From Rhizobium leguminosarum (GTDB lineage: Bacteria; Pseudomonadota; Alphaproteobacteria; Rhizobiales; Rhizobiaceae): a stretch of DNA of 25,159 nucleotides. Under the pieces are notes generated by a model, which worked only from the letters and a program-made list of their open reading frames with translations, did no database searches and was not told the DNA's origin. Position 1 is the stretch's first letter. The number at the start of each line of letters is the position of its first letter. The stretch covers positions 1 through 25,159 of the forward strand of contig NZ_LWBS01000445.1 of assembly GCF_001652265.1 (NCBI RefSeq). Reading direction: 5' to 3'. Of this stretch, positions 1 through 17,807 are shown one piece after another. Both the position numbers and the translations under genes were made by a program.

Positions 1-77
1 GTCCGGTCGGGGGCTCGCCTCAGCGCAAGTGGACATGCCGAGTGTCGCATTTCTAAATAGCTGAAGACGCGCCCAAA

Positions 78-181
78 GTGACACTTCTACTTTGCACACA
101 AACGGACATTCCAACCTTGCCGCCACAGGTGCTGTAGCCGCAAAGTTGAAGTGTCCTGTTTCTGCAAAGTTGGAATGTCAC
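78..181. repeat. Four copies of a ~17-bp motif, two in each orientation, upstream of the transposase remnant
   Basis: Two forward copies lie at 140-156 (GCAAAGTTGAAGTGTCC) and 164-181 (GCAAAGTTGGAATGTCAC). Two reverse copies lie at 78-95 and 104-120; their complements read GCAAAGTAGAAGTGTCAC and GCAAGGTTGGAATGTCC. Neighbouring copies start 24-36 bp apart. A fifth, more degenerate reverse copy may lie near 42-62. The cluster directly precedes the transposase start, so I infer transposase-binding sites in the subterminal end of the element. The true tip of the element and any target duplication are not identifiable here. Confidence 0.7.
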
Positions 182-215
182 ACTCCCCGCGTTTTGAGGA
201 CGTGGGAGATTGCCG

Positions 216-543
216 ATGGGACTGATTGCGATGAGCGAGCCTGATCTGCAGCGGATCGAAGTTTTGTCGAAGGTCATCGATGGCCGGATGACGCGGGTGT
301 CGGCGGCGCGTGTTTTGGCGCTGAGCCCGCGTCAGGTGCGCCGGCTGCTGGAGCGGATCAGAACGGGTGGCGCGGCGTCGATCCGGCACAAGACGATCGG
401 CCGGCCGTCGAACAACCGGATCAACGGTGGGCTTCGCGATTATGCTTTGGCGCTGGCTGGCGAGCGCTATTGGGATTTGGGGCCAACGCTGGCGGCCGAG
501 AAGCTTGCCGAGCGCGATGGGCTGACGGTATCGCGCGAGACGC
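216..543 (+). pseudogene. Truncated ISNCY-family transposase, N-terminal part only
   Basis: The reading frame from ATG 216, with GGGAG seven bases upstream, encodes a helix-turn-helix region (about residues 5-60, with VSAARVLALSPRQVRRLLER). It continues with the stretches GRPSNNR and GPTLAAEKLAERDGL that I recognise from the N-terminus of ISNCY-type transposases. After VSRET, near base 541, the family resemblance stops. The frame then runs antisense through the end of the adjacent sugar permease gene, so the annotated-looking tail to 743 is not transposase. Full-length relatives are several hundred residues and carry an integrase-like DDE domain, which is wholly absent, so the protein cannot be active. 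The breakpoint lies about 20 bp from the permease stop codon, which suggests a deletion or recombination joined the two. Confidence 0.8.
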
Positions 544-743
544 ATGGCCCATTCACCGACCTAGTCCTGATTGGCTACCACTGGCAAGCTGCCTTCGTTC
601 GAAAGACGGGCTTCGGTCTGCCGGGCGGCAAAGACGAGGCGGCGCTTTGCGCGGATCGCGTGCCATTGTTGGTCGATCAGGACGCCGATGAGGATCACGC
701 CACCCATGACAGCGAAATTCAGCGACGAAGGTATACCCAGTAG
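543..743 (+). other. Junction between IS remnant and sugar permease gene
   Basis: The transposase frame stays open to 743 only because it reads antisense across the permease 3' end. No hairpin followed by a T-run is visible between the permease stop (561) and the IS remnant, so the sugar operon may have lost its own terminator at this junction. This is an inference from the absence of a signal. Confidence 0.5.
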
Positions 744-1586
744 ATTCACGAGATTCTGCAACTCCTGGAGCAGGACCGTGCCCAGCACGACGCCGACGAT
801 CGATCCCTCGCCGCCGCGGAGCGAAAAGCCGCCGAGTACGGCAGCGGCAATCGCGTAGAGTTCGTAGAACTGGCCATGGCTCGCCGGCGAGATCGAGCGC
901 GTGTACATGGCGAAATAAATCGCCGAAAGCGCCGTCAGCAGCCCGCAGATGACATAGGCCGACATGACCATGCGGCCGGTACGGATACCGGAATAGCGGG
1001 CCGCCTCCTCGTTCTTCCCGATCGCGTAAAGATAACGCCCGAAGACAGAGCGATGCAGCATGATCCACATGACCACGGCAATGATGACGAGTGCGATGAA
1101 AGTGTTGGGAACGCCGTAAAACCGCCCAGCGGTCAGGAATTCGAGGTCGGGGAAATTTTGACCGAAAGCAAAGCCCGCCGTTCCGTCGGCCGTATAGAAG
1201 CGCGCTGCCCCACGATAGATCAGGAGGCCGCAGAGGGTGACGACGAAGGGCTGCAGGTTGAGCCGGGTGATCAGCCAGCCGTGGACGGCACCTATGACCG
1301 CGCCGAGCACGAGAATGAGCGGGAGCGCCAGCATCCATGACATATCCTGGACTGCGATGAAATCGACGAACAGCACGCCGAGAAGCGCGACGAGCGAGCC
1401 GACGGAAAGCTCGATGCCGCCTGTGATGATGACAAAGGCTTGACCGATCGACAGGATGCCGAACAGGCCGATCAGGTTGGCGGTATTGGCCAGGTTGATC
1501 GGCAGCAGGAAGCGCGGATTGATAATGGCGACGACGATGCCGACGACGACGATCAAAAGCAGCAGTCCGAGATCTTTTTTGATCAT
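561..1586 (-). CDS. Sugar ABC transporter permease (RbsC/BPD_transp_2 family)
   Basis: This is the inner-membrane permease of a ribose-type sugar importer. The 341-residue product is normal for the family. It is strongly hydrophobic with about eight to ten membrane segments and has the family marks GGIELSVGS (residues 56-64) and the cytoplasmic coupling loop AIGKNEEAARYSGI (188-201). The ATG at 1586 follows a GGGGATGG-like ribosome site. It is the last gene of a three-gene minus-strand operon, 42 bp after the ATPase gene, and presumably forms a homodimer in the membrane with that ATPase. The substrate cannot be told from sequence; a pentose, hexose or polyol is likely. The tail after residue 310 is polar and cytoplasmic. 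Its 3' end abuts the transposase remnant but the gene appears complete. Confidence 0.93.
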   Translation of the reverse strand: MIKKDLGLLLLIVVVGIVVAIINPRFLLPINLANTANLIGLFGILSIGQAFVIITGGIELSVGSLVALLGVLFVDFIAVQDMSWMLALPLILVLGAVIGAVHGWLITRLNLQPFVVTLCGLLIYRGAARFYTADGTAGFAFGQNFPDLEFLTAGRFYGVPNTFIALVIIAVVMWIMLHRSVFGRYLYAIGKNEEAARYSGIRTGRMVMSAYVICGLLTALSAIYFAMYTRSISPASHGQFYELYAIAAAVLGGFSLRGGEGSIVGVVLGTVLLQELQNLVNLLGIPSSLNFAVMGGVILIGVLIDQQWHAIRAKRRLVFAARQTEARLSNEGSLPVVANQD

Positions 1587-1628
1587 TCGAAATCCATCCC
1601 CGATACTTATTTATATTGGCCGCATCCG

Positions 1629-3170
1629 CTATTTTACCCTTTTGCCGACGGCAAGCAAAAGGACGCTTTCCTGGCTGATTTCGTTCTCTTCCAATATGCC
1701 GGCGATCTGCCCCTCGTGCATGACGGCGATGCGGTCAGAAACGCCGATCACCTCTTCCATGTCGCTGGAGATCATCAGGACCGCGACTCCGGCATCGGCA
1801 AGCGCTCGCATCAGGCCGTAGATCTCGTTCTTCGCGCCGATATCGATTCCGCGTGTCGGCTCGTCGAAGATCATCACCCTCGGGCTCATCGACAACCATT
1901 TGGCAAGCACCACCTTCTGCTGGTTGCCGCCGGACAGAGTGCCGGTTCGCGTCGAAACGGAGGGCGCCTTGATACCGAGGCGAACGCGCTGCTTTTCGGC
2001 CGCCGCCCTCTCCCGCTCAGCAGAAAGCATGAAGCGGCTGGAGAGCTTGGGGAGATCTGCAAGGGTTATGTTCTGGGCGATCGGGAAATCAAGAAGAATG
2101 CCGTTGCGCTTGCGATCTTCCGGTACCAGGAAAATGCCACGAGCGACGGCGCCCCGGGCAGACCTGATTACAATTTGCCGCCCATCCTGCAGAATGGCTC
2201 CGCCGTAGCTCCGGTCAATGCCGAAGAGCACCCTTGCAAGCTCCGTGCGGCCCGACCCCACGAGCCCTGCAAGCCCCATGATTTCTCCATACCGGATTTC
2301 CAGATCAACGGGACGGCCGGGATAGGCCTCGGTGCGCACGCCGCTTGCCTTCAGCGCAACCGAGCCGGGCGAGCGCTGCGGTTTTGCGGTCCGGGCCGCA
2401 AGCACCCGCCCGATCATCAGTTTCACCATCTGATCGTGGCCAATGTCTTTCTTGGCGAGCGTGCCCACAAGCGTGCCGTCGCGCAGGACTATGACCCGGT
2501 CTGCGACGCGCTCAACCTCGTGCAGGCGATGCGAGATAAAAATTACACTGATGCCATCCGCTTTCAGCGATTTGATAATGCTCAGGAGCCGATCGGTTTC
2601 GGCCAGCGGCAGGCTGGACGTGGGTTCATCGAAGATGACGAGCCTGGCGTTGATGGACAGCGCCTTGGCGATTTCCACCATCTGCTGCTCGGCAAGGGAA
2701 AGCGATGCCACGGGTGTGTCTGCGGAAAAATGAGCCCCTACCCGCTTCAAAAGCGGCTTCACCATGTCTCGCAGCCGATCGCGATCGACGAGCTTGAAAG
2801 GTCCCGCCTTCAGCGGTTCGCGGCCCAGGAAGATATTGGCAGCAACGTCGAGATTCTCAAAGAGATTGAGTTCTTGGTGCACGAAGGCGATGCCGGATGC
2901 GATGCTCGATTCCACAGTGAGGAAACGAAGCTCCGTGCCGTCGAGCAGAACCGTGCCTCGATCGGGCGCGATCACGCCGCCAAGAATCTTCATCAGCGTC
3001 GATTTTCCGGCCCCGTTCTCGCCGACGAGGCCGATGACCTCGCCCGGCAGGATGTCGATTGACAGGCCCTCAAGCGCAACGACGCCCGGATAGGTCTTGC
3101 CAATGCCGGAAAGCGAAAGGAACGGCGTTGCAAGCGCGTCCGGTGACGGGATGTCGGAGCTGTGGTTCAT
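1629..3170 (-). CDS. Sugar ABC transporter ATP-binding protein, two fused ABC domains (RbsA/MglA type)
   Basis: The 513-residue protein has two ATPase domains, as in RbsA, MglA and XylG. Domain 1 has Walker A GENGAGKST (50-58), signature LSLAEQQ (157-163) and Walker B LVIFDEP. Domain 2 has a degenerate Walker A, GLVGSGRTE (302-310), a canonical LSGGNQQ signature (412-418) and Walker B VMIFDEP. This asymmetry is usual in the family and implies that one site hydrolyses ATP. I chose the ATG at 3170 (MNHSSD) over an upstream in-frame start at 3227, because the extra 19 residues are unlike the family. The gene sits between the binding-protein and permease genes, and energises import by the permease. 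Confidence 0.93.
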   Translation of the reverse strand: MNHSSDIPSPDALATPFLSLSGIGKTYPGVVALEGLSIDILPGEVIGLVGENGAGKSTLMKILGGVIAPDRGTVLLDGTELRFLTVESSIASGIAFVHQELNLFENLDVAANIFLGREPLKAGPFKLVDRDRLRDMVKPLLKRVGAHFSADTPVASLSLAEQQMVEIAKALSINARLVIFDEPTSSLPLAETDRLLSIIKSLKADGISVIFISHRLHEVERVADRVIVLRDGTLVGTLAKKDIGHDQMVKLMIGRVLAARTAKPQRSPGSVALKASGVRTEAYPGRPVDLEIRYGEIMGLAGLVGSGRTELARVLFGIDRSYGGAILQDGRQIVIRSARGAVARGIFLVPEDRKRNGILLDFPIAQNITLADLPKLSSRFMLSAERERAAAEKQRVRLGIKAPSVSTRTGTLSGGNQQKVVLAKWLSMSPRVMIFDEPTRGIDIGAKNEIYGLMRALADAGVAVLMISSDMEEVIGVSDRIAVMHEGQIAGILEENEISQESVLLLAVGKRVK

Positions 3171-3212
3171 CGCCTGTCCATAGCTGCTAATGCTGTCGGC
3201 ATGAAGCGTCCT

Positions 3213-3242
3213 TCGCGGCAGCGGCAAGTGCCGCCGCCGCGA
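3213..3242 (-). promoter_or_regulatory. Long GC-rich intercistronic hairpin between binding-protein and ATPase genes
   Basis: CGCGGCAGCGGCA (3214-3226) and TGCCGCCGCCGCG (3229-3241) pair over 13 positions with one mismatch, and T3213/A3242 extend the stem. It begins 8 bp beyond the binding-protein stop and is not followed by a T-run on the minus strand. I infer an mRNA-stabilising or partially terminating element that raises the binding protein relative to the ATPase and permease, as known for other binding-protein-dependent operons. Confidence 0.7.
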
Positions 3243-3249
3243 CGGAGAG

Positions 3250-4212
3250 TCATTTTCCAGCCATGGCCTTCAGGCTGGCGGCATATTTGTCAACGTCATC
3301 CTTGCCGACGATCACCGTCGGGATGATGATCAAGCCGTTGCTGGGAACGCCTGATTTGTCGCCCTTGAGGTAGGCGGCCATCAGCTTCATGCCCTGATAG
3401 GCCCACTCGAACGGCTGCTGCACGACAGTCGCTGCGATCGTGCCTTCCTTGACGCCGCCGAGCGTGATCGGATCGTCATCAAAGCCGACGACGGTGATCT
3501 GGCCGAGTTTGCCGGCGTCGCGCAGCGCCTCATAGATGCGCGGCGTATTGTAGGAGTAGAAGCCGACCATGCAGGTGACGTCGGGGCTGGCCACCAGCGC
3601 GTCCTCGACGTTCTTCTTTGCACGCGTCTGGTCGATATCGTCGCCGCGTACATCTGTCAGCTCGATCTTCGTGCCCTTCAGGCCGTCCTTCATGCCCTGG
3701 ATGCGTTCTTTGGCATTGTCGGCGCCCAGCAGGCCGACGAAGCCGATGCATTTGCCGCCGTCCGGCATTGCTTTCTTGGCGATTTCGGCCGCCTGCGTGC
3801 CGGCGTCGATGTTAGACGAGCCGATATAGGCAACGCGATTAGTCTGCGGCGCGTCACTATCGGTCGTGAAGAGAGCAGTCTGCGAGCCGATCTTGTTCAA
3901 GCCGTCCGTCTGGGTCTTGGGGTCGACCGCGGAGACCATGATCCCCTTGACGCCGGCACTGACCAAGTCTTCCATAAGGCGTTGCTGAACGGCGACAGAT
4001 GCCTGCTCAGGGTACTTCAGCTCCATCTGGTAGTCCGGCATCTCGCCCTGCGCCTTCTTCACGCCCGCCTCCGCGGCCTTCCAGAAGTCGGATGCGCCAT
4101 TGACGACAAATGCGAGTGTCGGTTTGTCGGCAGCATGCGATACGGCAATCGGCGCCGCGCTGAGCATCAACCCGGCGAAGAACAAGGCTGCATTGCGTTT
4201 CAGCTGTTTCAT
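3250..4212 (-). CDS. Periplasmic sugar-binding protein of ABC importer (RbsB-like, Peripla_BP_4)
   Basis: This 320-residue protein captures a sugar in the periplasm and delivers it to the permease. It begins with a signal peptide (MKQLKR, then a hydrophobic stretch) with probable cleavage at SHA/ADK near residue 28. The mature part follows the ribose-binding fold: FVVNGASDFWKAAEAGVKKA, GIMVSAVDP, VAYIGSSN, IGFVGLLGADNAKERIQGMKDGL and VVGFDDDPITLGGVKEGTIAATVVQQP. The ATG at 4212 is preceded by GGGAGGT six bases away, a near-perfect ribosome site, so the in-frame start ten codons upstream is rejected. It is the first gene of the importer operon. The divergent LacI-type gene at 4561 is the likely regulator. 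Confidence 0.93.
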   Translation of the reverse strand: MKQLKRNAALFFAGLMLSAAPIAVSHAADKPTLAFVVNGASDFWKAAEAGVKKAQGEMPDYQMELKYPEQASVAVQQRLMEDLVSAGVKGIMVSAVDPKTQTDGLNKIGSQTALFTTDSDAPQTNRVAYIGSSNIDAGTQAAEIAKKAMPDGGKCIGFVGLLGADNAKERIQGMKDGLKGTKIELTDVRGDDIDQTRAKKNVEDALVASPDVTCMVGFYSYNTPRIYEALRDAGKLGQITVVGFDDDPITLGGVKEGTIAATVVQQPFEWAYQGMKLMAAYLKGDKSGVPSNGLIIIPTVIVGKDDVDKYAASLKAMAGK

Positions 4213-4292
4213 AATACACCTCCCGAGGGGCCGCAGTTGCACGGGCCCGTTTCCGATTTACGGCCGGCCGGATGCGCGCCCCCTCCTAGGGC

Positions 4293-4307
4293 CGTCGCAA
4301 AGCGACG
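4293..4307 (-). other. Small hairpin in the leader of the sugar importer operon
   Basis: CGTCGC and GCGACG pair perfectly around a three-base loop (4299-4301), about 80 bp upstream of the binding-protein start. No T-run follows. Its role is unknown; it could protect the 5' end of the mRNA. Confidence 0.4.
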
Positions 4308-4467
4308 AGTGGCATAGGTTCCGATCGCTCCCTGACGGTATACAAGAAATTTAATTAGTAAATAGTATTATCAATGCAGATCAAAACATTTCATCGCACA
4401 GTCGCCAGGATGGCAATTTTGTACTGGCATTGGCCAATAACTGACAATGTTGCAACAATTCATGCAA

Positions 4468-4497
4468 TTGCCAGCGCTTTCAGATAGATGCTAATAT
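4468..4497 (+). promoter_or_regulatory. Promoter of the LacI-type regulator with overlapping LacI-family operator
   Basis: A -35-like TTGCCA (4468-4473) and a -10-like TAATAT (4492-4497) are separated by 18 bp. The quasi-palindrome TGCCAGCGCTTTCA (4469-4482) has the LacI-family pattern TGnnAGCGCTnnCA with a central AGCGCT. It covers the -35 box, so autorepression is expected. A perfect TGTTGCAACA palindrome lies just upstream (4448-4457). The rest of the 4213-4560 intergenic region is AT-rich around 4340-4385, where the minus-strand importer promoter probably lies, but I see no clear boxes for it. Confidence 0.6.
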
Positions 4498-4560
4498 TAA
4501 TTACCCAAACCGACGATCAATCACCCCTGACCCATTATCAAGCAGAGACAGTTTCCACGA

Positions 4561-5655
4561 ATGCGAAAACCCAAGACCCAGAAGAGGAATAGGCCTGTGC
4601 GCGTGACGATGATGGACATCGCCGCGGCGGCTGGCTGCTCGCAGGCGGCCGTCTCCTTCGTCCTCAACGACACGCCCGGCACCCGTATCTCACAGCAGAC
4701 GCGCGATCGCGTATTGGAGGCGGCGCGGGCGCTCGGCTACATGGAGAAGACCTATACGACGAAGGCCTCCTATTCGGGACTGGACAACGTCATCGGTTTC
4801 GCCGTCGATCAACTCGCCACCAGCCCGGAAGCGATCGTTGCGATCGAAGGCGCGCGGCAAGCCTCCTGGAACGCCGGCAATGTCCTTCTGGTAACCCAGA
4901 CGCTCAGTGACCCCGTCATGGAGCCGAAAGCAATCGAGGCGTTGACGAACGGTGGCATATCGGCGCTCATATATATGACAATCTATACCCGTCAGGTGGA
5001 GATGCCTTCCTATGTCCGCAACCTTAACATCCCGACGGTCCTGCTGAACTGTTATACGGCGGACCATGCCTTTCCCGCCGTGGTGCCGAGCGAGATCGCG
5101 GGAGGGCAGAGCTCCACCCGGCATCTGATCATGCACGGACACCATCGTATCGCGACGATCACCGGCGAAATCTGGATGCAGGCTGCGCAGGATCGGCTGA
5201 CGGGATATCGCCGCGCGCTGGCGACTGCCGATATACCCTTCGATCAGGAATTGGTCATTGAAGGCGACTGGTCGGCCAGTGCCGGCTATGCCTCCACGAT
5301 GAAACTGCTTGCCCTGAAAGAGCCGCCCACCGCGATCTTCTGTCAGAACGACCGCACCGCCATCGGGTGCTACGAAGCGCTCAAGGATGCCGGGCTTCGC
5401 ATTCCCCAGGACATGTCGGTGGTGGGTTATGACGACGAAGAAATTTCACGACATCTCGTACCCCCCCTGACGACGTCGGTCCTTCCACATCTTGCCATGG
5501 GGCAGTGGGCGATCGAGCATCTCAACCCGGAAAATGTGCCCGGAAAACGCTATCCAATTGCGAAGCTGGAATGCTCGCTCGTTAAGCGTCATTCCGTCGC
5601 CGCGCCGCGGGCCGAGGCGCGGCAGATCCTCGATGGCGCATATACGTCGCCATAG
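4561..5655 (+). CDS. LacI-family transcriptional regulator
   Basis: The 364-residue protein is a DNA-binding repressor. Residues ~15-60 form the LacI helix-turn-helix and hinge (VTMMDIAAAAGCSQAAVSFVLND, then ISQQTRDRVLEAARALGY). The rest is a periplasmic-binding-protein-like sensor core, with VAIEGARQASWNAGN, TAIFCQNDRTAIGCYEALKDAGLRIPQDMSVVGYDDEEISRHLVPPLTTSVLP and a C-terminal KLECSLVKRHSV. Divergent from the sugar importer, it probably senses the imported sugar or a derivative and controls both that operon and itself through the operator at 4469-4482. The basic N-terminal tail (KPKTQKRNR) before the helix-turn-helix is longer than usual; an internal start near codon 17 is possible. No strong ribosome site precedes ATG 4561. 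Confidence 0.92.
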   Translation: MRKPKTQKRNRPVRVTMMDIAAAAGCSQAAVSFVLNDTPGTRISQQTRDRVLEAARALGYMEKTYTTKASYSGLDNVIGFAVDQLATSPEAIVAIEGARQASWNAGNVLLVTQTLSDPVMEPKAIEALTNGGISALIYMTIYTRQVEMPSYVRNLNIPTVLLNCYTADHAFPAVVPSEIAGGQSSTRHLIMHGHHRIATITGEIWMQAAQDRLTGYRRALATADIPFDQELVIEGDWSASAGYASTMKLLALKEPPTAIFCQNDRTAIGCYEALKDAGLRIPQDMSVVGYDDEEISRHLVPPLTTSVLPHLAMGQWAIEHLNPENVPGKRYPIAKLECSLVKRHSVAAPRAEARQILDGAYTSP

Positions 5656-5665
5656 CGTTCGCGCC

Positions 5666-5883: not shown

Positions 5884-5912
5884 TTGACGACGTGTGGATT
5901 TGGAGCTAGCTC
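5884..5912 (+). promoter_or_regulatory. Candidate promoter for the attenuator transcript
   Basis: A good -35 TTGACG (5884-5889) is followed after 17 bp by a weaker -10-like TAGCTC (5907-5912). Transcription would start at about 5919-5921, almost on the leader-peptide ATG at 5921. That would explain why no Shine-Dalgarno sequence stands at a useful distance. The S. meliloti trp leader is a known leaderless precedent. The -10 is poor, so this is an inference. Confidence 0.45.
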
Positions 5913-5920
5913 TATCGCCC

Positions 5921-5977
5921 ATGAAAATCGCAATGGTTCTCGTAGTGGTGATATCGCGCATGGGCAGGACGGTCTGA
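5921..5977 (+). CDS. Leader peptide of a branched-chain-amino-acid attenuator (18 aa)
   Basis: The frame reads MKIAMVLVVVISRMGRTV and then TGA (5975-5977). Residues 3-11 contain seven branched-chain residues out of nine (I3, V6, L7, V8, V9, V10, I11), which is the signature of a ribosome-stalling control peptide. It is followed by a 9-bp hairpin and an intrinsic terminator, and then by an acetolactate synthase gene, the first enzyme of valine/leucine/isoleucine synthesis. Low charged Val-, Leu- or Ile-tRNA should stall the ribosome in the run and prevent termination. The peptide itself is probably not functional. It lacks a Shine-Dalgarno sequence and may be translated from a leaderless mRNA. 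Confidence 0.8.
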   Translation: MKIAMVLVVVISRMGRTV

Positions 5978-6003
5978 TCGTCCGGCAATAGCCACCCATG
6001 CGC
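5956..6003 (+). promoter_or_regulatory. Attenuator pause hairpin (segments 1:2)
   Basis: GCGCATGGG (5956-5964) and CCCATGCGC (5995-6003) pair over nine positions without mismatch. GGACG (5967-5971) and CGTCC (5979-5983) form an inner stem. The outer 5' arm lies inside the last codons of the leader peptide, right behind the Val/Ile run, so a ribosome stalled there would cover it. Confidence 0.7.
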
Positions 6004-6011
6004 CGAAAACT

Positions 6012-6034
6012 GGTCCCTGACGGGGCCTTTTTTT
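6012..6034 (+). terminator. Intrinsic terminator of the attenuator (segments 3:4)
   Basis: GGTCCC (6012-6017) and GGGGCC (6022-6027) form a six-pair stem with one G-T pair and a TGAC loop, directly followed by seven T (6028-6034). It lies between the leader peptide and the synthase gene. A second, longer perfect stem, GACGGGGC (6019-6026) with GCCCCGTC (6037-6044), uses the same 3' arm and would exclude the terminator. CAGGAC (5965-5970) could also pair with GTCCCTG (6013-6019) with one bulge. Which one is the real antiterminator is not settled. Confidence 0.8.
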
Positions 6035-6078
6035 ATGCCCCGTCGCACCCATCACCTCACTCACGACGGAATCCAGAT

Positions 6079-7781
6079 ATGACCGGCGAGAAAGCCAACT
6101 CTTCCCTCAACAACCCCTCCGATCGTCGCATGAACGGCTGCGAGATCGTTCTGCAGGCGCTGCGCGACAATAATGTCGAACACATTTTCGGTTATCCCGG
6201 CGCAGCCGTGCTGCCGATCTATGACGAAATCTTCCAACAGGAGGACATCAGACATTTCCTGGTGCGCCATGAACAAGGCGCCGGACACGCCGCCGAAGGC
6301 TATGCCCGCTCGACGGGGAAAGTGGGTGTCATGCTGGTAACATCGGGACCAGGCGTTACAAATGCGGTAACGGCGCTGCAGGATGCGCTTATGGACTCCG
6401 TTCCCCTCGTCTGCCTCGCCGGCCAGGTGCCGACAAGCCTGATCGGCACGGACGCTTTTCAGGAATGCGATACGGTCGGCATCACCCGCCCCTGCACAAA
6501 GCACAATTTCCTAGTCCAACACATCGACGATCTGGCCAAAACGATCCATCTGGCTTTCCGGATCGCGGCGTCCGGCCGGCCCGGCCCTGTTCTCATCGAC
6601 ATGCCGAAGGACGTGCTCTTCGCCATCGGGACCTACGTTGCACCTGACGTAGCTCGGCCGCCCAGCTACCAGCCCGCAATGCAAGGCGATCAGAACGCGA
6701 TCCGGTCGGCTGTCGCATTGATGGCCGAAGCCCGACGACCCATTATCTATACGGGCGGCGGCATCATCAACTCCGGACCGGAGGCGTCGAGATTGTTGCG
6801 CGAGTTTATCGACCTCACCGGCTTTCCGGTAACGTCGACCGTCATGGGGCTTGGGGCCTATCCGGCTACCGGGCCGAACTGGCTGCGGGTCGCCGGACAG
6901 GACGGATCGCATGAAGCGAATATGGCAATTGGCGATTGCGACCTGATGATCGTCATCGGCGCGCGTTTTGACGACCTTGCGACCTCGCGTGCCCGGAGTT
7001 TTCACCTCGCTCGAAGAAAATCCAGATCGATATCGATGCCTCGTCGATCAACAAACGCGTTCTCGTCGACATCGGCATTCGGGGCGACGCCGCACATGTG
7101 CTGGCGGATATGATCCATGCCTGGCGGTCGCTCTCCACTATGCCCGACCAGAAGCGGTTGCGAGCGTGGTGGACGGAGATCGATCACTGGCGAGCCCGCC
7201 ATTCGTTTTCCTATGAGCGGCTGGACCATGCAATCATGCCGCAACATGCCCTGGAGCGCCTGCATGCGCTGACAAAGCCGCACGACCCCATCATCACCAC
7301 GGAGATCGGTCAGCAGATGTGGGTGGCGCAGTTCTTCGGCTTCGACAAACCCAATCGCTGGATTACGTCAGGGGGATTGGGGACGATGGGCTTCGGTCTT
7401 CCTGCCGCGCTGGGCGCGCAGATCGCAAATCCCGGGCGCCTTGTCATCGACATTGCCGGCGACGCTTCGGTGCAAACGACGATGAAAGAGCTGTCGACCG
7501 CGATACAGCATCAAGCGCCGATCAAGATCTTCGTATTGAGCGATGAGCATCCGGGCATGGCGCGAGAATGGGAACAACAGCCGGATGGCAACGGTCGACT
7601 GCGCTCTTATTCGGCATCACTGCCCGATTTCACCAAGCTCGCGGAAGCCTATGGCGCTGTCGGCCTTCGCTGTGAGAGGCCGAGCGAACTAGATGCCAGG
7701 ATCGAGGAGATGATCGACGCGGACCGGCCGGTGCTCCTCCATTGCCGGGTTGCAAGGCTCGCCGACGGCCATCCGCGGTGA
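6079..7781 (+). pseudogene. Acetolactate synthase large subunit, frameshifted (ilvI/ilvB-type)
   Basis: This ThDP enzyme would condense two pyruvates, or pyruvate and 2-oxobutyrate, in branched-chain amino-acid synthesis. Frame 1 from ATG 6079 shows GCEIVLQALRDNNVEHIFGYPGAAVLPIYDEIF, the catalytic-Glu region LVRHEQGAGHAAEGYARSTGKVG, and QECDTVGITRPCTKHN, up to GARFDD. Near 6995-7000 the frame is lost. The next frame resumes with FSPRSKKIQIDIDASSINKRV and runs to 7781, as if one base were deleted. In the ThDP motif GDAS...NN, the usual NN is SD (FVLSDEHPGM), and the normally conserved RQWQQLLHGNR region has become REWEQQPDGNG. The C-terminus is about 30 residues short of relatives. No small-subunit gene follows. 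The start at 5998 is rejected because it lies inside the attenuator. Decay is more likely than a sequencing error, given the several defects. Confidence 0.8.
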
Positions 7782-7964: not shown

Positions 7965-9401
7965 CTAATTAACCGTCTCGGTTACAAGCTTTGCATTGAA
8001 ATAAGCTTCCATCGCTTCGCTGCCGCCTTCTGACCCGTAGCCGGAATCTTTTATGCCGCCGAAGGGTAGCTCTGGCAGCGCCAGTCCATGATGATTGATC
8101 GATAGCATGCCACTTTCGATGTCGCGGGCAAGGTTGGCGCTCGTCTTCGTAGAAGTCGTGTAGGCATATGCCGCCAGCCCGTATGGCAGGCGGTTGGCTT
8201 CCGCAATGGCAGAGCCGTAATCCGAAAATGCACTGACGATCGCCATCGGACCGAAGGGTTCTTCGTTCAGCACGCGCGCATCTTGTGGAACGTCGGTCAA
8301 AACTGTCGGCTGGAAGAAGTTGCCGAGATTGCCGATTCTTTTGCCGCCGGTTGCGATCTTTGCGCCACGCATCACCGCGTCGGCCGTCAGCGACTCCATG
8401 GCTTCGACCCTTCGCGGATTGGCAAGCGGCCCCATGGTTACGCCGTCGCGCAATCCATCGCCGACATCGATTGCCTCGGCCGCCTTCACGAAGCCATCGA
8501 GGAATTTTTCAAAGACGCGTTCCTGGATGAGGAACCGCGTCGGAGCCACGCAGACCTGGCCGGCATTTCGAAACTTCGCACCAGCCAATAGTCTGACCGC
8601 AAGATCGATATCGGCATCATCGAAAACGAGAGCTGGCGCATGGCCGCCGAGCTCCATCGTCATCCGCTTCATGTGGACGCCGGCCAGTGAGGCCAGTTGC
8701 TTTCCAACGACGGTCGATCCGGTGAAGGAGATTTTGCGGATAACAGGGTGCGGGATGAGGTGATTTGAAATATCGGCTGGAACTCCGAAAACGAGATTGA
8801 GCACTCCCGCCGGCAGGCCTGCGTCAGCAAAGGCGCGAACAAGCTCGGCGCAGCTTGCCGGCGTCTCCTCCGGTCCCTTCAAAATAATCGAACAGCCGGC
8901 TGCAAGGGCCGCCGAAACTTTCCGTACGGCTTGATTCAACGGGAAATTCCAGGGACTGAAGGCCGCCACCGGACCGACAGGCTCCTTGACAACCATTTGC
9001 CTGATATTGGTCGCTCTGGGTGGAACCAAACGGCCGTAGGCACGGCGAGCCTCTTCGGCAAACCAATCGATGGTGTCGGCAGCCCCCGCCGTTTCCGCCT
9101 TGGATTCCGCCAGCGGCTTGCCCTGCTCCAACGTCATTATTCTCGAGATCGCCGCGGAACGGTCGCGCAAGATCTCGGCGGCTTGGCGCATAAGCTTTGA
9201 CCGGTCGAACGCACTAACGCGCCGCCATTGTTCAAAGCCGGCGGCAGCGGCTGCAAGCGCTTCATCGAGATCACTCTTGCTGGCATTCGAAACGCTACCG
9301 ATGACCTCGCCCGAAGTAGGATTAACGATGGAGAGCTGCCCGTTTGAGCCGTCCCTCCAAAGGCCATTGATGTAAAGTTGGGTATCCGGATATCCCGACA
9401 T
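7965..9401 (-). CDS. NAD(P)-dependent aldehyde dehydrogenase, succinate-semialdehyde dehydrogenase-like
   Basis: This 478-residue cytoplasmic enzyme oxidises an aldehyde to an acid. It has the standard ALDH elements: PWNFP with N152, ILKGPEETP with K175 binding the cofactor (the usual Pro after Lys is Gly), FTGSTVVGK, general base E250 in MELGG, nucleophile C284 in NAGQVC, and EEPFGP. Similarity to the GabD group, together with the upstream aminotransferase, points to succinate semialdehyde or malonate semialdehyde as substrate. I chose ATG 9401 (MSGYPD) because GGAGAG precedes it; the longer in-frame start overlaps the upstream gene. It lies 17 bp after the gamma-glutamyltransferase gene and is the last gene of the operon. 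Confidence 0.9.
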   Translation of the reverse strand: MSGYPDTQLYINGLWRDGSNGQLSIVNPTSGEVIGSVSNASKSDLDEALAAAAAGFEQWRRVSAFDRSKLMRQAAEILRDRSAAISRIMTLEQGKPLAESKAETAGAADTIDWFAEEARRAYGRLVPPRATNIRQMVVKEPVGPVAAFSPWNFPLNQAVRKVSAALAAGCSIILKGPEETPASCAELVRAFADAGLPAGVLNLVFGVPADISNHLIPHPVIRKISFTGSTVVGKQLASLAGVHMKRMTMELGGHAPALVFDDADIDLAVRLLAGAKFRNAGQVCVAPTRFLIQERVFEKFLDGFVKAAEAIDVGDGLRDGVTMGPLANPRRVEAMESLTADAVMRGAKIATGGKRIGNLGNFFQPTVLTDVPQDARVLNEEPFGPMAIVSAFSDYGSAIAEANRLPYGLAAYAYTTSTKTSANLARDIESGMLSINHHGLALPELPFGGIKDSGYGSEGGSEAMEAYFNAKLVTETVN

Positions 9402-9418
9402 ATCGCTCTCCATTGCCG

Positions 9419-11011
9419 TCAGTAGCCGAGTGCGCAACCATCTTTCCGATGATCAGAAGCGCCCAACAGCGTGTTGTGTTGATCGTCAATCCAAATCGCC
9501 TGGGCACCGCCAATCGCCCAATTCGGAGCGACAACCTTGAAGCCGCGCGCTTCGAGATCATCGCCGATCGAGGTGCGAAGACGTGCTTCGGCTTCGATCG
9601 TCGCAGTGCCGGGAAGCGGAAAGAGCCGAGGTAAATCGATTGCGCTCTGAATGTCCAAATTGAAGTCGAACAGCTTGGAGAGGAAGTGGGCGTGGCCCAT
9701 CGCCTGATAGTGCCCCCCCATGACGCCGAACGACAAAACAGTTTTGCCATGGCGTGTCACCAGCCCTGGGATGATCGTGTGCATGGGCCTCTTGCGCGGC
9801 TCTATCGCATTCGGATGGCCCTGCTTCATAACGAAGCTTTGCCCCCGATTGTGGAATAGGACGCCGGAGTTTGGCGCCATCAAGCCGCTTCCGTAGGGAT
9901 GGAAGACCGAGTTGATGAAGCTCGCAACATTTCGGTCCTTGTCGACAACCGAAATATAAACCGTGTCCGAATGCTCGACGCCGTCGAGAACCGCCGCGGC
10001 GTTGGCGGCTGTAGTCATATCGATCTTGGCAGCAAGACTGTCGGCGAGTTCATCGGACAACAGAAAGTCGACCGGAACATCTGATACTGCCGCGTCGGCT
10101 ACCCATCGATCACGGGCGGCATAAGCCAGCCGAGTGGCTTCGATTTCGACGTGCAGATTGTCGACGCCCAGCGGATCGCCTTTGCGTTCAAAACGCTCCA
10201 AAATCTTCAGGATCATCAGAGCGATAATCCCCTGCCCGTTTGGCGGGCATTCATGCACCGTCCATCCTCGATATGTCGCGCTGACGGGCTTCACATATTC
10301 GCCGGCGGCAGATGCAAAATCTTCAAGTGTATGGAGACCGCCAAGCGAATTCAGCCGTGTCACCATGTCGTCCGCCACGGGACCACGATAGAAGCCGTCA
10401 CGGCCTGAAATCGCGATCGCTTCCAGTGTCTGTGCCAGTTCCGGCTGACGTTGAACCGATCCGACAGGCGGGGCCTGATCGTCGATCAAGAAAATACGGC
10501 GTGTCGAAGGATCACGCAGCAACAAATCACGTTGGTTCGAAATATCGACGGCAACGCGTGGGGTGATCCCATAGCCGTCGCGCGCCAGCGCCATTGCGGG
10601 AGCAAGGATTTCAGCCAGCGACATCCTTCCATGATCGGCAACGAGACGCGTCCATGCGTCCACCGCACCGGGAACGGTCACCGCATGCGGCGACGATCGC
10701 TCGATCGAAGTGATGCCGTTTTCCCTGAACCAATCAAAATGCGCCGCCGCCGGCGTGCGTCCCGAGCCATTATAGGCAACGACATCTTCATTTCCGTTTG
10801 ATCTCAGCAGCGCAAAGCAATCGCCGCCTATGCCGGTGGATCCGGCCTCGACCACGCATTGCACGGCACAGGCACCCACCGCAGCATCGATCGCCTTGCC
10901 GCCGGCTTTGAGGATCTCGATCGCGGTCAAAGTCGCCATAGGGTGCGATGTTGCTGCCATCCCATTGCGGCCGACAGCTATCGATCTTCCCGGCATTTCG
11001 AAGTTTCGCAT
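9419..11011 (-). CDS. Gamma-glutamyltransferase-family protein (Ntn hydrolase)
   Basis: The 530-residue protein belongs to the family that self-cleaves and then transfers or hydrolyses gamma-glutamyl groups. The N-terminal part shows AGGKAIDAAVGACAVQCVVEAGSTGIGGDCFALL and NGSGRTP, with the substrate-binding Arg at 85. The predicted autocleavage and nucleophile residue is T350 in HSDTVYISVVD. GSGLMAPNSGVLFHNRG and MGGHYQAMGHAHFL follow. No signal peptide is visible, whereas E. coli Ggt is periplasmic, so this one is probably cytoplasmic. It lies 17 bp after the aminotransferase and 17 bp before the dehydrogenase, inside the same operon, so it probably acts on a gamma-glutamylated pathway intermediate. 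It could equally be an amidohydrolase of the cephalosporin-acylase-like branch. Confidence 0.88.
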   Translation of the reverse strand: MRNFEMPGRSIAVGRNGMAATSHPMATLTAIEILKAGGKAIDAAVGACAVQCVVEAGSTGIGGDCFALLRSNGNEDVVAYNGSGRTPAAAHFDWFRENGITSIERSSPHAVTVPGAVDAWTRLVADHGRMSLAEILAPAMALARDGYGITPRVAVDISNQRDLLLRDPSTRRIFLIDDQAPPVGSVQRQPELAQTLEAIAISGRDGFYRGPVADDMVTRLNSLGGLHTLEDFASAAGEYVKPVSATYRGWTVHECPPNGQGIIALMILKILERFERKGDPLGVDNLHVEIEATRLAYAARDRWVADAAVSDVPVDFLLSDELADSLAAKIDMTTAANAAAVLDGVEHSDTVYISVVDKDRNVASFINSVFHPYGSGLMAPNSGVLFHNRGQSFVMKQGHPNAIEPRKRPMHTIIPGLVTRHGKTVLSFGVMGGHYQAMGHAHFLSKLFDFNLDIQSAIDLPRLFPLPGTATIEAEARLRTSIGDDLEARGFKVVAPNWAIGGAQAIWIDDQHNTLLGASDHRKDGCALGY

Positions 11012-11028
11012 ATCGTCGGTTCCCTCGC

Positions 11029-12411
11029 TCAGTAGAGGCCGGTCGCCCTGGCCCAGGTGTAGGTGTCATCCAACGCCCGGGTGGAGCGGTCGAACAATTC
11101 GTTGATCTGTGCTTCGGTGATGATAAGCGGCGGGCAAAGCGAGTAGTTGTCGCCAAGGGCGCGCGTGATGACGCCATGGACCTGGGCCTGCTTGCCGGCG
11201 TGAATGGCAATGCCGTCCCCTGGCTTGAATTGCTCTTTGGTTTCCTTATTGCGAACCAGTTCGAGTGTGCCGATGAGGCCACGACCGCGGGCGTTGCCAA
11301 CAAGCGGATGGTCGCCAAGTTCGCTCAACCGTCGCTGGAATACCGTGGCAACGTCCCTGACGTGGCCGACAATGTCGCGCTCCTCATAGATTTTCAGGGT
11401 TTCCAAAGCGACGGCGGTAGCAACAGGATGGCCGCTATAGGTGAAACCATGTCCGAATGTTCCGATTTTCTCGCTTTCGGCAACGACCGCGGAATGGACC
11501 TTTTCGTTGATCATCAGGGCAGATATCGGCTGATAGGCCGCCGAAAGCTGCTTTGCCATGACGATCATATCCGGCTGAAGCCCGAAGCTTTCGGAGCCGA
11601 ACATCGTGCCGAGCCTGCCGAAGCCGCAGATGACTTCATCGGCGATCAGCAGCACGTCGTATTTCTTGAGGATTGCCTGGATCTTCTCGTAATAGGTCGG
11701 CGGCGGAACGATGCAGCCACCGGATGCCATCAATGGCTCAGCGAAAAATGCACCGATGGTTTCCGGTCCCTCGGCGAGGATCATCTGTTCAAGCGAATCG
11801 GCACAGCGCATCGCAAATTCTTCCTCAGTTTCGCCCGGGCGGCCGTAGCGATAAAATTCGGGGCAATCCGTATGCAGCACCCGATCAATAGGCAGATCGA
11901 AATCGCGGTGGTTGTTCGGAAGCCCCGTCAGGCTCGCCGAAGCGATGGTGACGCCGTGGTAGGCCCGCATCCGCGATATGATTTTCTTCTTTTCCGGCTT
12001 GCCGATGGCATTGTGATAATACCAGACAAGCTTCATGGCGGTGTCGTTGGCCTCGGAACCCGAATTGGCAAAGAACACTTTCGACATCGGGACCGGTGAA
12101 AGCTGAATGAGCCGGTCGGCAAGCTCGATCGCGGTCTCATGCGTCTTGCCGCCGAAGCTGTGATAGAAGGGCAGTTCCTTCATCTGGCGGGTTGCCGCGT
12201 CTACCAGCCGTTGTTCGCTGAAACCCAGCGAGGCACAAAACAGCCCGCCAAGACCCTCGATGTATTTATTGCCGTCGCTGTCGATGATGTGGATCCCCTC
12301 ACCCTTGGCGATGACCAGCGGGCCGTCCTTCAAATGCTGCGAGGCGTTCGTATAGGGATGAAGAACGAACGCGGCGTCGCGGGATTCAAGGGAGTTGAGA
12401 AGGATGGTCAC
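11029..12411 (-). CDS. Class III aminotransferase (omega-amino acid / GABA type)
   Basis: This 460-residue PLP enzyme moves an amino group from an omega-amino acid or diamine to a keto acid, probably pyruvate. Visible features are GLFCASLGFSEQRLVDAA, NSGSEANDTAMKL (phosphate binding), RMRAYHGVTIASASLTG, the PLP aspartate D258 in LLIADEVICGFGR and the Schiff-base lysine K287 in MAKQLSAAYQPISALMI. This pattern is shared with SpuC- and GABA-transaminase-like enzymes. The start is GTG at 12411, with GGAG eight bases upstream. In the operon it follows the ureohydrolase and binding-protein genes and precedes the gamma-glutamyltransferase. The likely reaction is GABA or beta-alanine to its semialdehyde, feeding the dehydrogenase at the operon end. 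The exact substrate is inferred. Confidence 0.92.
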   Translation of the reverse strand: MTILLNSLESRDAAFVLHPYTNASQHLKDGPLVIAKGEGIHIIDSDGNKYIEGLGGLFCASLGFSEQRLVDAATRQMKELPFYHSFGGKTHETAIELADRLIQLSPVPMSKVFFANSGSEANDTAMKLVWYYHNAIGKPEKKKIISRMRAYHGVTIASASLTGLPNNHRDFDLPIDRVLHTDCPEFYRYGRPGETEEEFAMRCADSLEQMILAEGPETIGAFFAEPLMASGGCIVPPPTYYEKIQAILKKYDVLLIADEVICGFGRLGTMFGSESFGLQPDMIVMAKQLSAAYQPISALMINEKVHSAVVAESEKIGTFGHGFTYSGHPVATAVALETLKIYEERDIVGHVRDVATVFQRRLSELGDHPLVGNARGRGLIGTLELVRNKETKEQFKPGDGIAIHAGKQAQVHGVITRALGDNYSLCPPLIITEAQINELFDRSTRALDDTYTWARATGLY

Positions 12412-12470
12412 AGGGGTTCTCCAAATAATAGCTTTGTTTCGATTGCGGCGCTTGGCAAAGCTCCATCAGT

Positions 12471-12501
12471 CAGCCGGTGCGACCTCTCGGTGCACCGGCT
12501 G
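12471..12501 (-). promoter_or_regulatory. Intercistronic hairpin between binding-protein and aminotransferase genes
   Basis: CAGCCGGTGC (12471-12480) and GCACCGGCTG (12492-12501) pair perfectly over ten positions with an 11-base loop. No T-run follows on the minus strand. As in the sugar importer, it sits just 3' of a binding-protein gene inside an operon, so it may protect or partly terminate the transcript and keep the binding protein abundant. Confidence 0.65.
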
Positions 12502-12536
12502 CCGATTGCTGCCGGAATAAGAGCCTTACCCTTTAA

Positions 12537-13379
12537 TCAATCAAGAGTTGTCTTTATCCACTTTTCTGCGAGCTTGTTGATCGTGCCGTCGGCTTCGGCC
12601 GCTTCGATCGCCGCATCGAACATCGACTTCAAGACCGTATCGTCCTTGCGAAGGCCCGCCGCGATGCCTTGTCCAAAGACCCCGCCTTTGAAGGTCGGAC
12701 CCGCGATCTTGTAGTCTATGAAGTCGTCCTTGCCGAGCGTTGCAGTCAATGAGGTTTTCTGGGCAACGACGGCATCGATCCGACCGGCCTGGAGGTCCAG
12801 ATCATGCTGTTCGACGGTCTTGTATTCCCTGGGATCGACGACGCCCTTGAAATAGGTATCGAGAAACGCAGTGTTCGCCGTCGAGACCTGGGCGCCGACG
12901 GCCTTGCCCTTCAGGGCGTCTCGAAGCGGCTGCAATTCCTGCTCGACCTTCGCCTTGTCGCCAGCGAGGTCCACCGTCGTCCCGGTTCCCGGCAGATCTG
13001 CGAGAGGACCGGTTTTTTCGACCATGAAAGCGGCCGCGGTCGGGGCGTAGGGCTTGCTGAACGAGATGACGGCAAGGCGCTTTTCGGTCACGATCATCGA
13101 AGCCATGATGGCGTCGAACTTCTTCGCGGTGAGCGATGGAATCAGCCCATCCCAGTCCTGGGCGACGATGGTGCATTTGACCTTCATGCGAGCGCAAAGG
13201 TCGTTGGCAAGATCGATCTCGAACCCTGCAAGCTTGCCGTCAGGACCGGTAAAATTCCAAGGTTCGTATGCGCCCTCGGTCGCAATGGTGATCTCGGTTG
13301 GTTTTGTCTCAGCGGCGGCAGCGCCGACAGAGACGACGCCGAGCAGAGCGGACGTCAACAAGAATTTTGATATTTGCAT
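12537..13379 (-). CDS. Polar amino-acid ABC transporter periplasmic binding protein (HisJ/ArgT/OccT-like)
   Basis: The 280-residue protein has a signal peptide cleaved near AAAA/ETK (residue ~23). The mature part has the family-3 solute-binding layout: EITIATEGAYEPWNF, GFEIDLANDLCARMKVKCTIVAQDWDGLIPSLTAKKFDAIMASMIVTEKR (the Arg that binds the alpha-carboxylate), FSKPYAP and DLDLQAGRIDAVVA. It most resembles lysine/arginine/ornithine and opine binding proteins, so a guanidino or basic amino acid is a likely ligand. ATG 13379 is preceded by GGGGA. Its permeases and ATPase are not adjacent but lie in the divergent unit at 15418-17657, an unusual split. It is 80 bp downstream of the ureohydrolase gene. 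Confidence 0.92.
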   Translation of the reverse strand: MQISKFLLTSALLGVVSVGAAAAETKPTEITIATEGAYEPWNFTGPDGKLAGFEIDLANDLCARMKVKCTIVAQDWDGLIPSLTAKKFDAIMASMIVTEKRLAVISFSKPYAPTAAAFMVEKTGPLADLPGTGTTVDLAGDKAKVEQELQPLRDALKGKAVGAQVSTANTAFLDTYFKGVVDPREYKTVEQHDLDLQAGRIDAVVAQKTSLTATLGKDDFIDYKIAGPTFKGGVFGQGIAAGLRKDDTVLKSMFDAAIEAAEADGTINKLAEKWIKTTLD

Positions 13380-13459
13380 TTAGCATTCCCCTTTTTGGTA
13401 GACCCTGCCCTTTTCCCAAGGCGAGGCTGTTGCAGACTCCGCGACATCCAGCCCGTTTG

Positions 13460-14506
13460 CTAGGACGCGCGAACCTTGATTGCCTCGGCCGTCAGGCAGA
13501 GGAGTTCGAATAAGACCTGGGCGGCAATTTGCGCCGTGTTCGACGTTGGATCGTATTGCGGAGCGATCTCGACGACGTCGCCGCCGACGATGTTCAAACC
13601 TGCAAGACCGCGCAGAATTCCGAGTGCCTGGGCAGACGTCAGCCCACCGACCTCAGGCGTCCCCGTGCCAGGCGCAAATGCCGGATCAAGAGAATCGACG
13701 TCGAAGCTGATGTAGGTTGGGCCTGATCCGGCGATTTCTCTCGCTTTGGCGATGACGGCCTTTATGCCGAGGTCGCCAACGTCTTCCGCATGGATGACGG
13801 TCATGCCGGACGCGTAAGAAAATTCCCACAGATACTCGGAATTTCCTCGAATTCCGATCTGGATCGTCCGCGTGGGATCAAGCACACCGTCCAGAACCGC
13901 TTGGCGGAACGGTCCGCCATGATGGAATTTGCACCCCTCGAATGAACCACCCGTGTCGCAATGTGCATCGATGTGGATCATCCCGACGGGCTGATGCTTG
14001 CCAAGGGCCTTGAGAATTGGAAGGCTGATCGAATGGTCACCGCCGACTGCCAGGGGCACAACGCCCGCTTCTACCAGCCCGCGGACAAATCGTTTGATAT
14101 CTTCATGGGATGCAGCAAGATCAAAGCGGCTTTTGAACGGAACATCGCCCACGTCGGCAACGCGTGCATGGGCAATCGGGACGGCTCGCAAGACATGATC
14201 GTAAGGACCGACCCGATCGACATTGCGGACGGCCCTCGGCCCGAATCGCGCGCCTGATCGGTTCGTCACGCCTAGATCCATCGGAATTCCGAAAAGCGCT
14301 ATGTCTATATCCGTAAAATTGGGTGATGCGTCGGGACGACACGGTGCCTTCAGCAATGTCGGAACCCCGCAATAGGGCGCCTGACGACTGTCTGCCTCAC
14401 CGAAGACCAGCTCGGCAACCTTTCGAAACTCCGGATCGAATACTTCGCCGCCTGAAGCGTTCGAAAAACGCTTGCGCAATTCGTCCAGGCTGAGAATCTC
14501 CGGCAT
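13460..14506 (-). CDS. Ureohydrolase (agmatinase / guanidinobutyrase family)
   Basis: This 348-residue enzyme hydrolyses a guanidino group to urea plus an amine using two Mn ions. All metal ligands are present: H158 in GGDHS, D180, H182 and D184 in DAHCD, and D269 and D271 in DVDSLDP. VTNRSGARFGPRAVR (80-94) is a conserved family element and HHGGPF (195-200) lies near the substrate pocket. The ~65-residue N-terminal extension with YCGVPTLLKAPC is longer than in SpeB-type agmatinases and is seen in larger guanidino-acid hydrolases. With the GABA-type aminotransferase and the semialdehyde dehydrogenase downstream, 4-guanidinobutyrate or 3-guanidinopropionate fit better than agmatine, but the substrate is inferred. 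The start ATG 14506 follows GGAGG. It is the first gene of the minus-strand operon, divergent from the GntR gene. Confidence 0.9.
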   Translation of the reverse strand: MPEILSLDELRKRFSNASGGEVFDPEFRKVAELVFGEADSRQAPYCGVPTLLKAPCRPDASPNFTDIDIALFGIPMDLGVTNRSGARFGPRAVRNVDRVGPYDHVLRAVPIAHARVADVGDVPFKSRFDLAASHEDIKRFVRGLVEAGVVPLAVGGDHSISLPILKALGKHQPVGMIHIDAHCDTGGSFEGCKFHHGGPFRQAVLDGVLDPTRTIQIGIRGNSEYLWEFSYASGMTVIHAEDVGDLGIKAVIAKAREIAGSGPTYISFDVDSLDPAFAPGTGTPEVGGLTSAQALGILRGLAGLNIVGGDVVEIAPQYDPTSNTAQIAAQVLFELLCLTAEAIKVRAS

Positions 14507-14584
14507 CTGGCCTCCATGTGTTCTGAAGCAATCTCAAGCCGCATTCAAAAAGCGAATGAGGAGCCATTGCTTGTTGTCTCCAAC

Positions 14585-14617
14585 ATTGTATACATAATCG
14601 TATTCTTCTTGATCAAG
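14585..14617. promoter_or_regulatory. Candidate GntR/FCD operator region between divergent operons
   Basis: The 14507-14659 region separates the ureohydrolase and GntR genes. ATTGTATACATA (14585-14596) contains the perfect palindrome TGTATACA (14587-14594) and resembles the ATnGTATACnAT-like sites of FCD-type GntR regulators. A second perfect palindrome, CTTGATCAAG (14608-14617), lies 13 bp further. No clear promoter boxes could be assigned. Control of both operons from here is an inference. Confidence 0.5.
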
Positions 14618-14686
14618 CAAGAGGGAAAAAGTTATGGTGACGCTCGCCAGGCCCGGTGAATGGACCAGAGATGGAAGGGGAATCGA

Positions 14687-15385: not shown

Positions 15386-15417
15386 CGCAAACCTGATCTT
15401 TCACCACGAGGTCACGC

Positions 15418-16841: not shown

Positions 16842-16853
16842 ACGGGAGCATGC

Positions 16854-17780: not shown

Positions 17781-17807
17781 CAGTTGGGCTTTCGTGAGAC
17801 GCGTGCG

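Follow-up and report, generated by a model that had tools for sequence, protein, structure and literature searches.

A probable valine leader-peptide attenuator of the Atu_C8 family before a lone acetolactate synthase paralogue of Rhizobium leguminosarum

What does a very short, valine-rich reading frame control when it stands, together with a terminator, before a solitary acetolactate synthase gene? The question is raised by a stretch of 25,159 nucleotides of Rhizobium leguminosarum DNA, hereafter called the window. The original prediction had read the locus as a branched-chain amino-acid attenuator, made up of a Val/Leu/Ile leader frame with seven branched-chain residues in nine codons, a perfect 9-bp hairpin behind this run, and GGTCCC-TGAC-GGGGCC followed by seven T. 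All of these parts stand in the DNA exactly as described (Table 1). The peptide MKIAMVLVVVISRMGRTV is encoded by 18 codons and carries its seven V/I/L residues within codons 3–11, and the two arms of the hairpin, here called P1, pair perfectly over 9 bp and enclose two smaller hairpins, P2 and P3. The element thus has two hallmarks of an attenuator, namely a codon run for the end product and an intrinsic terminator between leader and gene.

Table 1. Features of the leader and the synthase gene in the window.
Feature	Position	Strand	Basis or remark
TTGACG, -35-like hexamer	5884–5889	+	position kept across copies; putative promoter element
CTAGCT, -10-like hexamer	5906–5911	+	ends 9 nt 5' of leader ATG; promoter role predicted
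Leader peptide frame MKIAMVLVVVISRMGRTV + TGA (ATG 5921–5923, TGA 5975–5977)	5921–5977	+	read directly; comparison of 86 distinct codon strings
Tandem Val codons GTG GTG (codons 9–10), presumed control codons	5945–5950	+	near-invariant Val
Rfam RF02502 Atu_C8 match	5923–6044	+	105.4 bits, gathering 50
P1 5' arm GCGCATGGG, within leader frame	5956–5964	+	near-invariant sequence
P2 hairpin, leader stop codon at loop	5967–5983	+	folding and covariation
P3, GGC-AATA-GCC	5984–5993	+	folding and comparison
P1 3' arm CCCATGCGC	5995–6003	+	contains ATG 5998, opening frame into synthase
Intrinsic terminator, GGTCCC (6012–6017), TGAC, GGGGCC (6022–6027), 6 bp, then T7 (6028–6034)	6012–6034	+	sequence, folding, alignment
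Acetolactate synthase paralogue (class B), first part, through frame break to stop	6079–7113	+	Pfam TPP_enzyme_N/M
Acetolactate synthase paralogue, second part, other frame	7098–7781	+	TPP_enzyme_C

A scan of the window against Rfam at gathering score returned one family only, RF02502 (“Rhizobiales sRNA Atu_C8”). Its covariance model was matched over the full length (1–122 of 122, E 1.6e-22), with the same P1, P2, P3 and terminator. The RNA 5915–6045 folds with z = -3.9, and none of 200 shuffles was equally stable. The combination of a short frame with at least seven V/I/L in nine codons and a hairpin with T6 within 80 nt occurs a single time in the window, and none of 100 dinucleotide shuffles contains it. 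Among 21 sequences, P2 showed five pairs changed on both sides with pairing kept. We are confident that the element is a leader-peptide attenuator for branched-chain amino acids, chiefly valine, of the alpha-proteobacterial ilvIH type (Atu_C8), and that it is a second copy placed before a lone synthase paralogue. That it actually regulates this gene we infer from its sequence.

The assembly of this strain (G000: 472 contigs, 93% complete, 5.4% contamination) contains two copies of the element, the one in the window and a canonical one on contig C419, which precedes an ilvI frame of 616 codons with the genome's one ilvH match close downstream. The element was present in 60 of 60 genomes of the genus, our own included, and 45 of them had at least two copies. 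Sixty fetched regions and the window gave 61 oriented genus copies, of which 15 precede ilvI (class A), 18 a lone synthase (class B) and 28 a transporter (class C); all 61, that of the window included, stand directly before ilvI, its paralogue or the transporter. In the bacterial family the element was detected in 193 of 199 genomes at E ≤ 0.001 (187 above the cut-off), nearly always as a single copy under strict filters. Inspection of 29 family loci (L089–L117) indicated that 28 precede ilvI, 24 being class A by motif and 4 more by protein, while the remaining one, L110, precedes a B-type synthase. The attenuator reading is supported by this distribution, as the family is a known one that lies mostly before ilvI where inspected. 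A class-level search for RF02502 found 6 of 385 genomes at E ≤ 0.001 and 2 above the cut-off, one of them our own, under strict filters that deprive it of weight as evidence of absence. Outside the genus, G505 and G590, both from one other genus, carry class B copies, and the leader is joined to the transporter in G624, from a different genus, and in G166, from a different family.

Codons were compared over 122 loci, which include repeats (e.g. L003 = L078) and yield 86 distinct strings. Counted back from a conserved Arg-Met-Gly, Val occupies position -4 in 85 of the 86 strings and position -3 in all of them, whereas positions -5 to -7 hold mainly V, I, L or A by differing codons. The run is therefore kept as amino acids while its codons vary, in line with the conservation in homologous loci that a leader-peptide reading calls for. 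The stop codon lies at +6 in all 86 strings. The letters of P1 are near-invariant as well (CGC in 85 of 86 strings, GGC in 85 of 86), and in the window (5956–6003) and its homologues both arms are conserved beyond the needs of coding and pairing, which may indicate a further role, for example in trans.

The promoter region is also kept. TTGAC was found upstream in all 115 distinct copies of classes A, B and C that were surveyed (TTGACG in 107), with its first T 36–37 nt 5' of the model ATG in 106 of the 115. A -10-like hexamer stands 16 nt beyond it, reading CTATCA in 38 of 59 A copies and [CT]TAGCT in 16 of 20 B and 23 of 36 C copies. As these promoter-like hexamers keep a near-fixed distance, the leader mRNA is predicted to start at or beside the AUG, in the window at about 5918–5921, and would probably be leaderless or nearly so. 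The Rfam model has its first position at 5923, on the last base of the ATG; this, taken with the promoter spacing, suggests that the leader is probably translated from the very 5' end of the RNA.

The acetolactate synthase gene announced by the original prediction was found in part. A forward frame with Pfam TPP domains does run from 6079, but the gene is split over two frames, of 371 aa (5998–7113) and 227 aa (7098–7781), and is not intact. The intact enzyme of three close relatives (L049, L051, L054) has 595 aa. The window synthase is 90% identical to an intact relative over 6001–7020 and differs by one base in length at about 6985–7000 from 4 of 4 relatives compared; mutation and assembly error are both possible, and relatives carry intact copies. 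An ilvI followed by ilvH was not found in the window. The synthase paralogue there stands alone and is not followed by ilvH; this 93% complete genome has its single ilvH match near the C419 copy.

The frame break makes it conceivable that the window copy is a decaying remnant, copied long ago, which is perhaps still transcribed and terminated and controls no working enzyme here. To this reading we assign a chance somewhat short of even. The window leader, however, is undamaged and differs little from the leader of L049, the synthases of the compared relatives lack the break, and with the genome in 472 contigs the break might be an assembly error. The ATG at 5998 in the P1 3' arm opens an MRxKxAPxGAFF-like frame, as also in e.g. 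L094, L111 and L032. A conserved in-frame fusion from this ATG into the gene was rejected as a rule, since only some of the copies keep the frame open into the gene.

As for its surroundings, 311 of 400 plasmid records matching the window, among the matches listed, belong to Rhizobium. Among the same matches, the flanks 1–5661 and 7978–17642 match different Rhizobium plasmid records separately, so the blocks of genes on either side of the leader-synthase unit do not necessarily belong together. Farther downstream (17784–21053) is a frame of 1089 aa with, by eye, a zinc-ribbon-like start and nucleotide-cyclase-like and AAA/TPR-like stretches.

Identity, place and tree set the B-type synthases apart from A; 19 of the 60 genus genomes have one, and 18 of the 19 have the leader. 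The synthase of G033 (L142) has no Atu_C8 match above the cut-off; its leader was lost or never gained. A third synthase type, 56–57% identical, is found in five genus genomes (G026, G030, G049, G052, G054), and no element was found near it. The class labels were first based on the GYPGG residue, and the synthase tree (87 rows, some doubled) recovers the same split, with A (65) and B (22) separated with full support. Class B is, judged from these sequences, an old, monophyletic acetolactate synthase paralogue. A comparison of 475 residues in 65 rows of class A and 20 of class B, which include duplicates and leave out the broken or misread window copy and L141_B, gave five near-fixed differing positions, among them Gly to Ala in GYPGG. 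The RFDDRITG loop of class A (60 of 65 A rows listed) is altered in the 11 B rows listed of the 20, in two only slightly, and HEQG is kept in all 20 B rows. In the acetolactate synthase of plants, these loops are located at the inhibitor-binding channel. The loop changes would equally be explained by relaxed constraint.

Leader attenuators of ilvIH (ilvBN) in alpha-proteobacteria are reportedly treated by Vitreschak 2004. Excerpts of later papers citing that work name an “ilvIH cis regulatory” element in S. meliloti (PMC2573895) and an “ilvB leader peptide” of alpha-proteobacteria (PMC1273637), and an excerpt of a third gives ilvIH leader attenuation for Caulobacter, citing Tarleton 1994 (PMC4117421). 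The kind of attenuator in the window is already known: Atu_C8 is the alpha-proteobacterial ilvIH leader. The type and short description of RF02502 in Rfam are those of an sRNA, whereas each member inspected here is a leader, either of ilvI or of one of two further genes. With the alpha-proteobacterial ilvIH (ilvBN) leaders the window element shares the V/I/L leader, the terminator and an acetolactate synthase downstream; unlike them it precedes a second synthase without ilvH, the canonical copy being elsewhere in the genome. It resembles trpL/rnTrpL of Sinorhizobium meliloti, as presented in PMC10117765, in the leaderless frame at the RNA 5' end (only predicted here) and in the short terminated RNA, although that leader has Trp codons in place of Val. 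As in the ilvBN, ilvGMEDA and leu attenuators of E. coli, described in PMC6123439, ribosome stalling on branched-chain codons is the presumed sensor; unlike in these, no 2:3-type antiterminator is detectable in the window element by folding.

In the mechanism that we propose, a supply of charged Val/Ile/Leu-tRNA would let the ribosome complete the leader, P1 would re-form and the terminator would end the transcript, so that a terminated RNA of roughly 115 nt, the “sRNA”, would accumulate. When charged Val-tRNA is scarce, the ribosome would stall on the Val codons and cover the P1 5' arm, and transcription would continue into the synthase gene. The read-through product of the window strain would be broken by the synthase frameshift.

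Folding of 13 elements revealed no antiterminator, the terminator having a probability of 0.99–1.0 at every ribosome position tried. We also computed, for 96 distinct elements, how far the terminator 5' arm pairs with upstream sequence while the 3' arm is still to be transcribed. With P1 hidden the mean rose from 0.21 to 0.45 and was higher in 84 of 96, and with the ribosome at the stop codon it was the same (0.46). The rise was confined to classes A and B; in class C (30 elements) the value was unchanged (0.36 and 0.36), and against shuffled linkers the real sequence was higher in only 27 of 96. An antiterminator formed by the P1 3' arm is unsupported against shuffled linkers, and one formed by CAGGA and the terminator 5' arm was rejected by eye, being absent from many class A copies. 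Because folding yields no antiterminator, the read-through switch is proposed by analogy. Behind the U tract, many copies share ATGCCC (6035–6040), which after read-through could pair with the terminator 3' arm.

The missing antiterminator would suit an element that is primarily a trans-acting sRNA made by constitutive termination, its leader peptide and its place before ilv genes being secondary, and so would the Rfam type “Gene; sRNA” and a P1 sequence more constant than pairing or coding demands. An attenuator RNA acting in trans has a precedent in rnTrpL of S. meliloti (PMC10117765, PMC7298713). We nevertheless consider this reading rather unlikely, as the V/I/L run is conserved at the amino-acid level and all 61 genus copies lie directly before ilvI, its paralogue or the transporter. 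The two roles are compatible, and an attenuator might act in trans as well.

In class C the element precedes a Bcr/CflA-like transporter of about 410–450 aa. Close transporters of this class (E ≤ 1e-60) occur in 28 of 60 genus genomes, and the element is directly upstream in 28 of 28, a stop codon lying inside two of the 28 matches. Three class C proteins compared with NCBIfam had Bcr/CflA efflux as their best model (183–190 bits, curated cut-off 200.9) and also matched CmlA/FloR-type models, again below the curated cut-offs. By sequence, the closest relatives of solved structure are multidrug resistance protein D (EmrD) and MdfA. A homologue in G581 (L122), 49% identical, has a TPP riboswitch upstream instead (L122 1235–1350), which suggests nutrient transport in this group. 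Judged from the leader, the transporter would most plausibly import valine or a precursor during starvation, with efflux of a toxic compound as the rival. That the leader senses antibiotic-slowed translation in place of amino-acid supply, driving an efflux pump (C) or a bypass enzyme (B), is improbable, for although the below-cut-off efflux matches and the known efflux-controlling attenuators such as mef/mel (PMC4335068) agree with it, pump leaders would not need Val codons conserved from family to family, yet VVV/VV is kept in most copies, L155 being without. The class C leader-transporter stretch was also seen on large plasmids (H38–H45) of Rhizobium and Phyllobacterium sp. A18/5-2, with 99–100% query coverage and 76–83% identity. 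Among the papers listed in a literature search, with most subscription journals outside its coverage, none connected the leader with a second synthase or a Bcr/CflA transporter, which is weak evidence that the link is new.

Named genomes were searched with a transporter alignment; the best 80 of 469 relatives were kept, and 40 of these 80 loci were scanned with Rfam. The first 20 gave eight Atu_C8 and two tRNAs, Atu_C8 being above the cut-off in L150–L154, L178 and two Devosia loci (L156, L157). The other 20 had no Rfam match. In a scan of 18 homologous transporter loci besides these, Rfam matched a TPP riboswitch once and Atu_C8 once. A covariance model, R1, built from 21 elements with class C ones included, had 10 matches at E ≤ 0.013 among the best 80 of 469, all just upstream of the transporter. 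The eight Rfam-positive loci scored 90–132 bits, L155 (whose leader lacks VVV) and L162 matched weakly at 22 bits, and L165 had E 0.11. The leader of L158 was found by a frame-plus-terminator search. In sum, a leader precedes the transporter in 12 of the best 80 of 469 and in 12 of 13 loci with at least 49% identity; in the remaining one, L215, the match covers the gene incompletely. L218, flagged by the frame-plus-terminator search, and L221 (R1 E 0.99, inside a gene) were taken as chance. A Val-rich leader before a Devosia orthologue reads MMIENGMVVVGARMGTAA; those of Kiloniellaceae (MKQIVVVVGERRLDR and MISLVVVRRKRRRAR) and Minwuia (MHLLNTVVVGARRPGR) have weaker evidence than that of Devosia. 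A transporter tree made by a quick method (104 rows, row L039 disregarded as a wrong-frame reading) gathered all rows with a leader into a single supported clade; of its 55 rows, 41 have a leader and none was found for 14.

The leaders themselves were placed in a tree of 115 distinct rows, in which the Rhizobium-like B and C leaders are joined (99/98, bootstrap not settled), the B leaders of G505 and G590 stand at the base, and those of Devosia, G166 and G624 stand apart. The joint clade indicates a later common ancestor for the leaders of B and C, whose genes are not related to each other, and leader capture would be the simplest reading. B and C occur together in 1 of 60 genomes (G046), against 8.9 expected from 19 and 28. 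The hypergeometric P of 6.6e-6 does not control for shared descent, and we therefore count the mutual avoidance as a lead, not a result.

A speculative and unlikely extension of the attenuator reading is that a valine attenuator was copied off ilvIH into a small regulon answering blocked branched-chain synthesis, whose two further targets in Rhizobium would be, as alternative answers, class B, an old isozyme that has altered active-site loops and lacks a regulatory subunit, or the class C transporter. If so, B and C would answer the same stress, be it an acetolactate synthase inhibitor, valine poisoning or a lack of valine, and uncharged tRNA arising from the block would turn on whichever of them is present. 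The Val-rich leaders before the transporter orthologues of Devosia, Kiloniellaceae and Minwuia suggest, within this reading, a link older than the genus.

For the family, an RNA filed as sRNA in Rfam, Atu_C8, is identified with the ilvIH attenuator, and the attenuator module of promoter, probably leaderless leader, hairpins and terminator proves portable, since a single leader lineage precedes an isozyme or a transporter, depending on the genome. A transporter group with unassigned substrate gains a strong functional lead in branched-chain amino-acid stress, and it becomes testable how such alpha-proteobacterial attenuators would switch without an evident antiterminator. The main interest lies in an attenuator of a known family that has spread to a spare synthase and a transporter.
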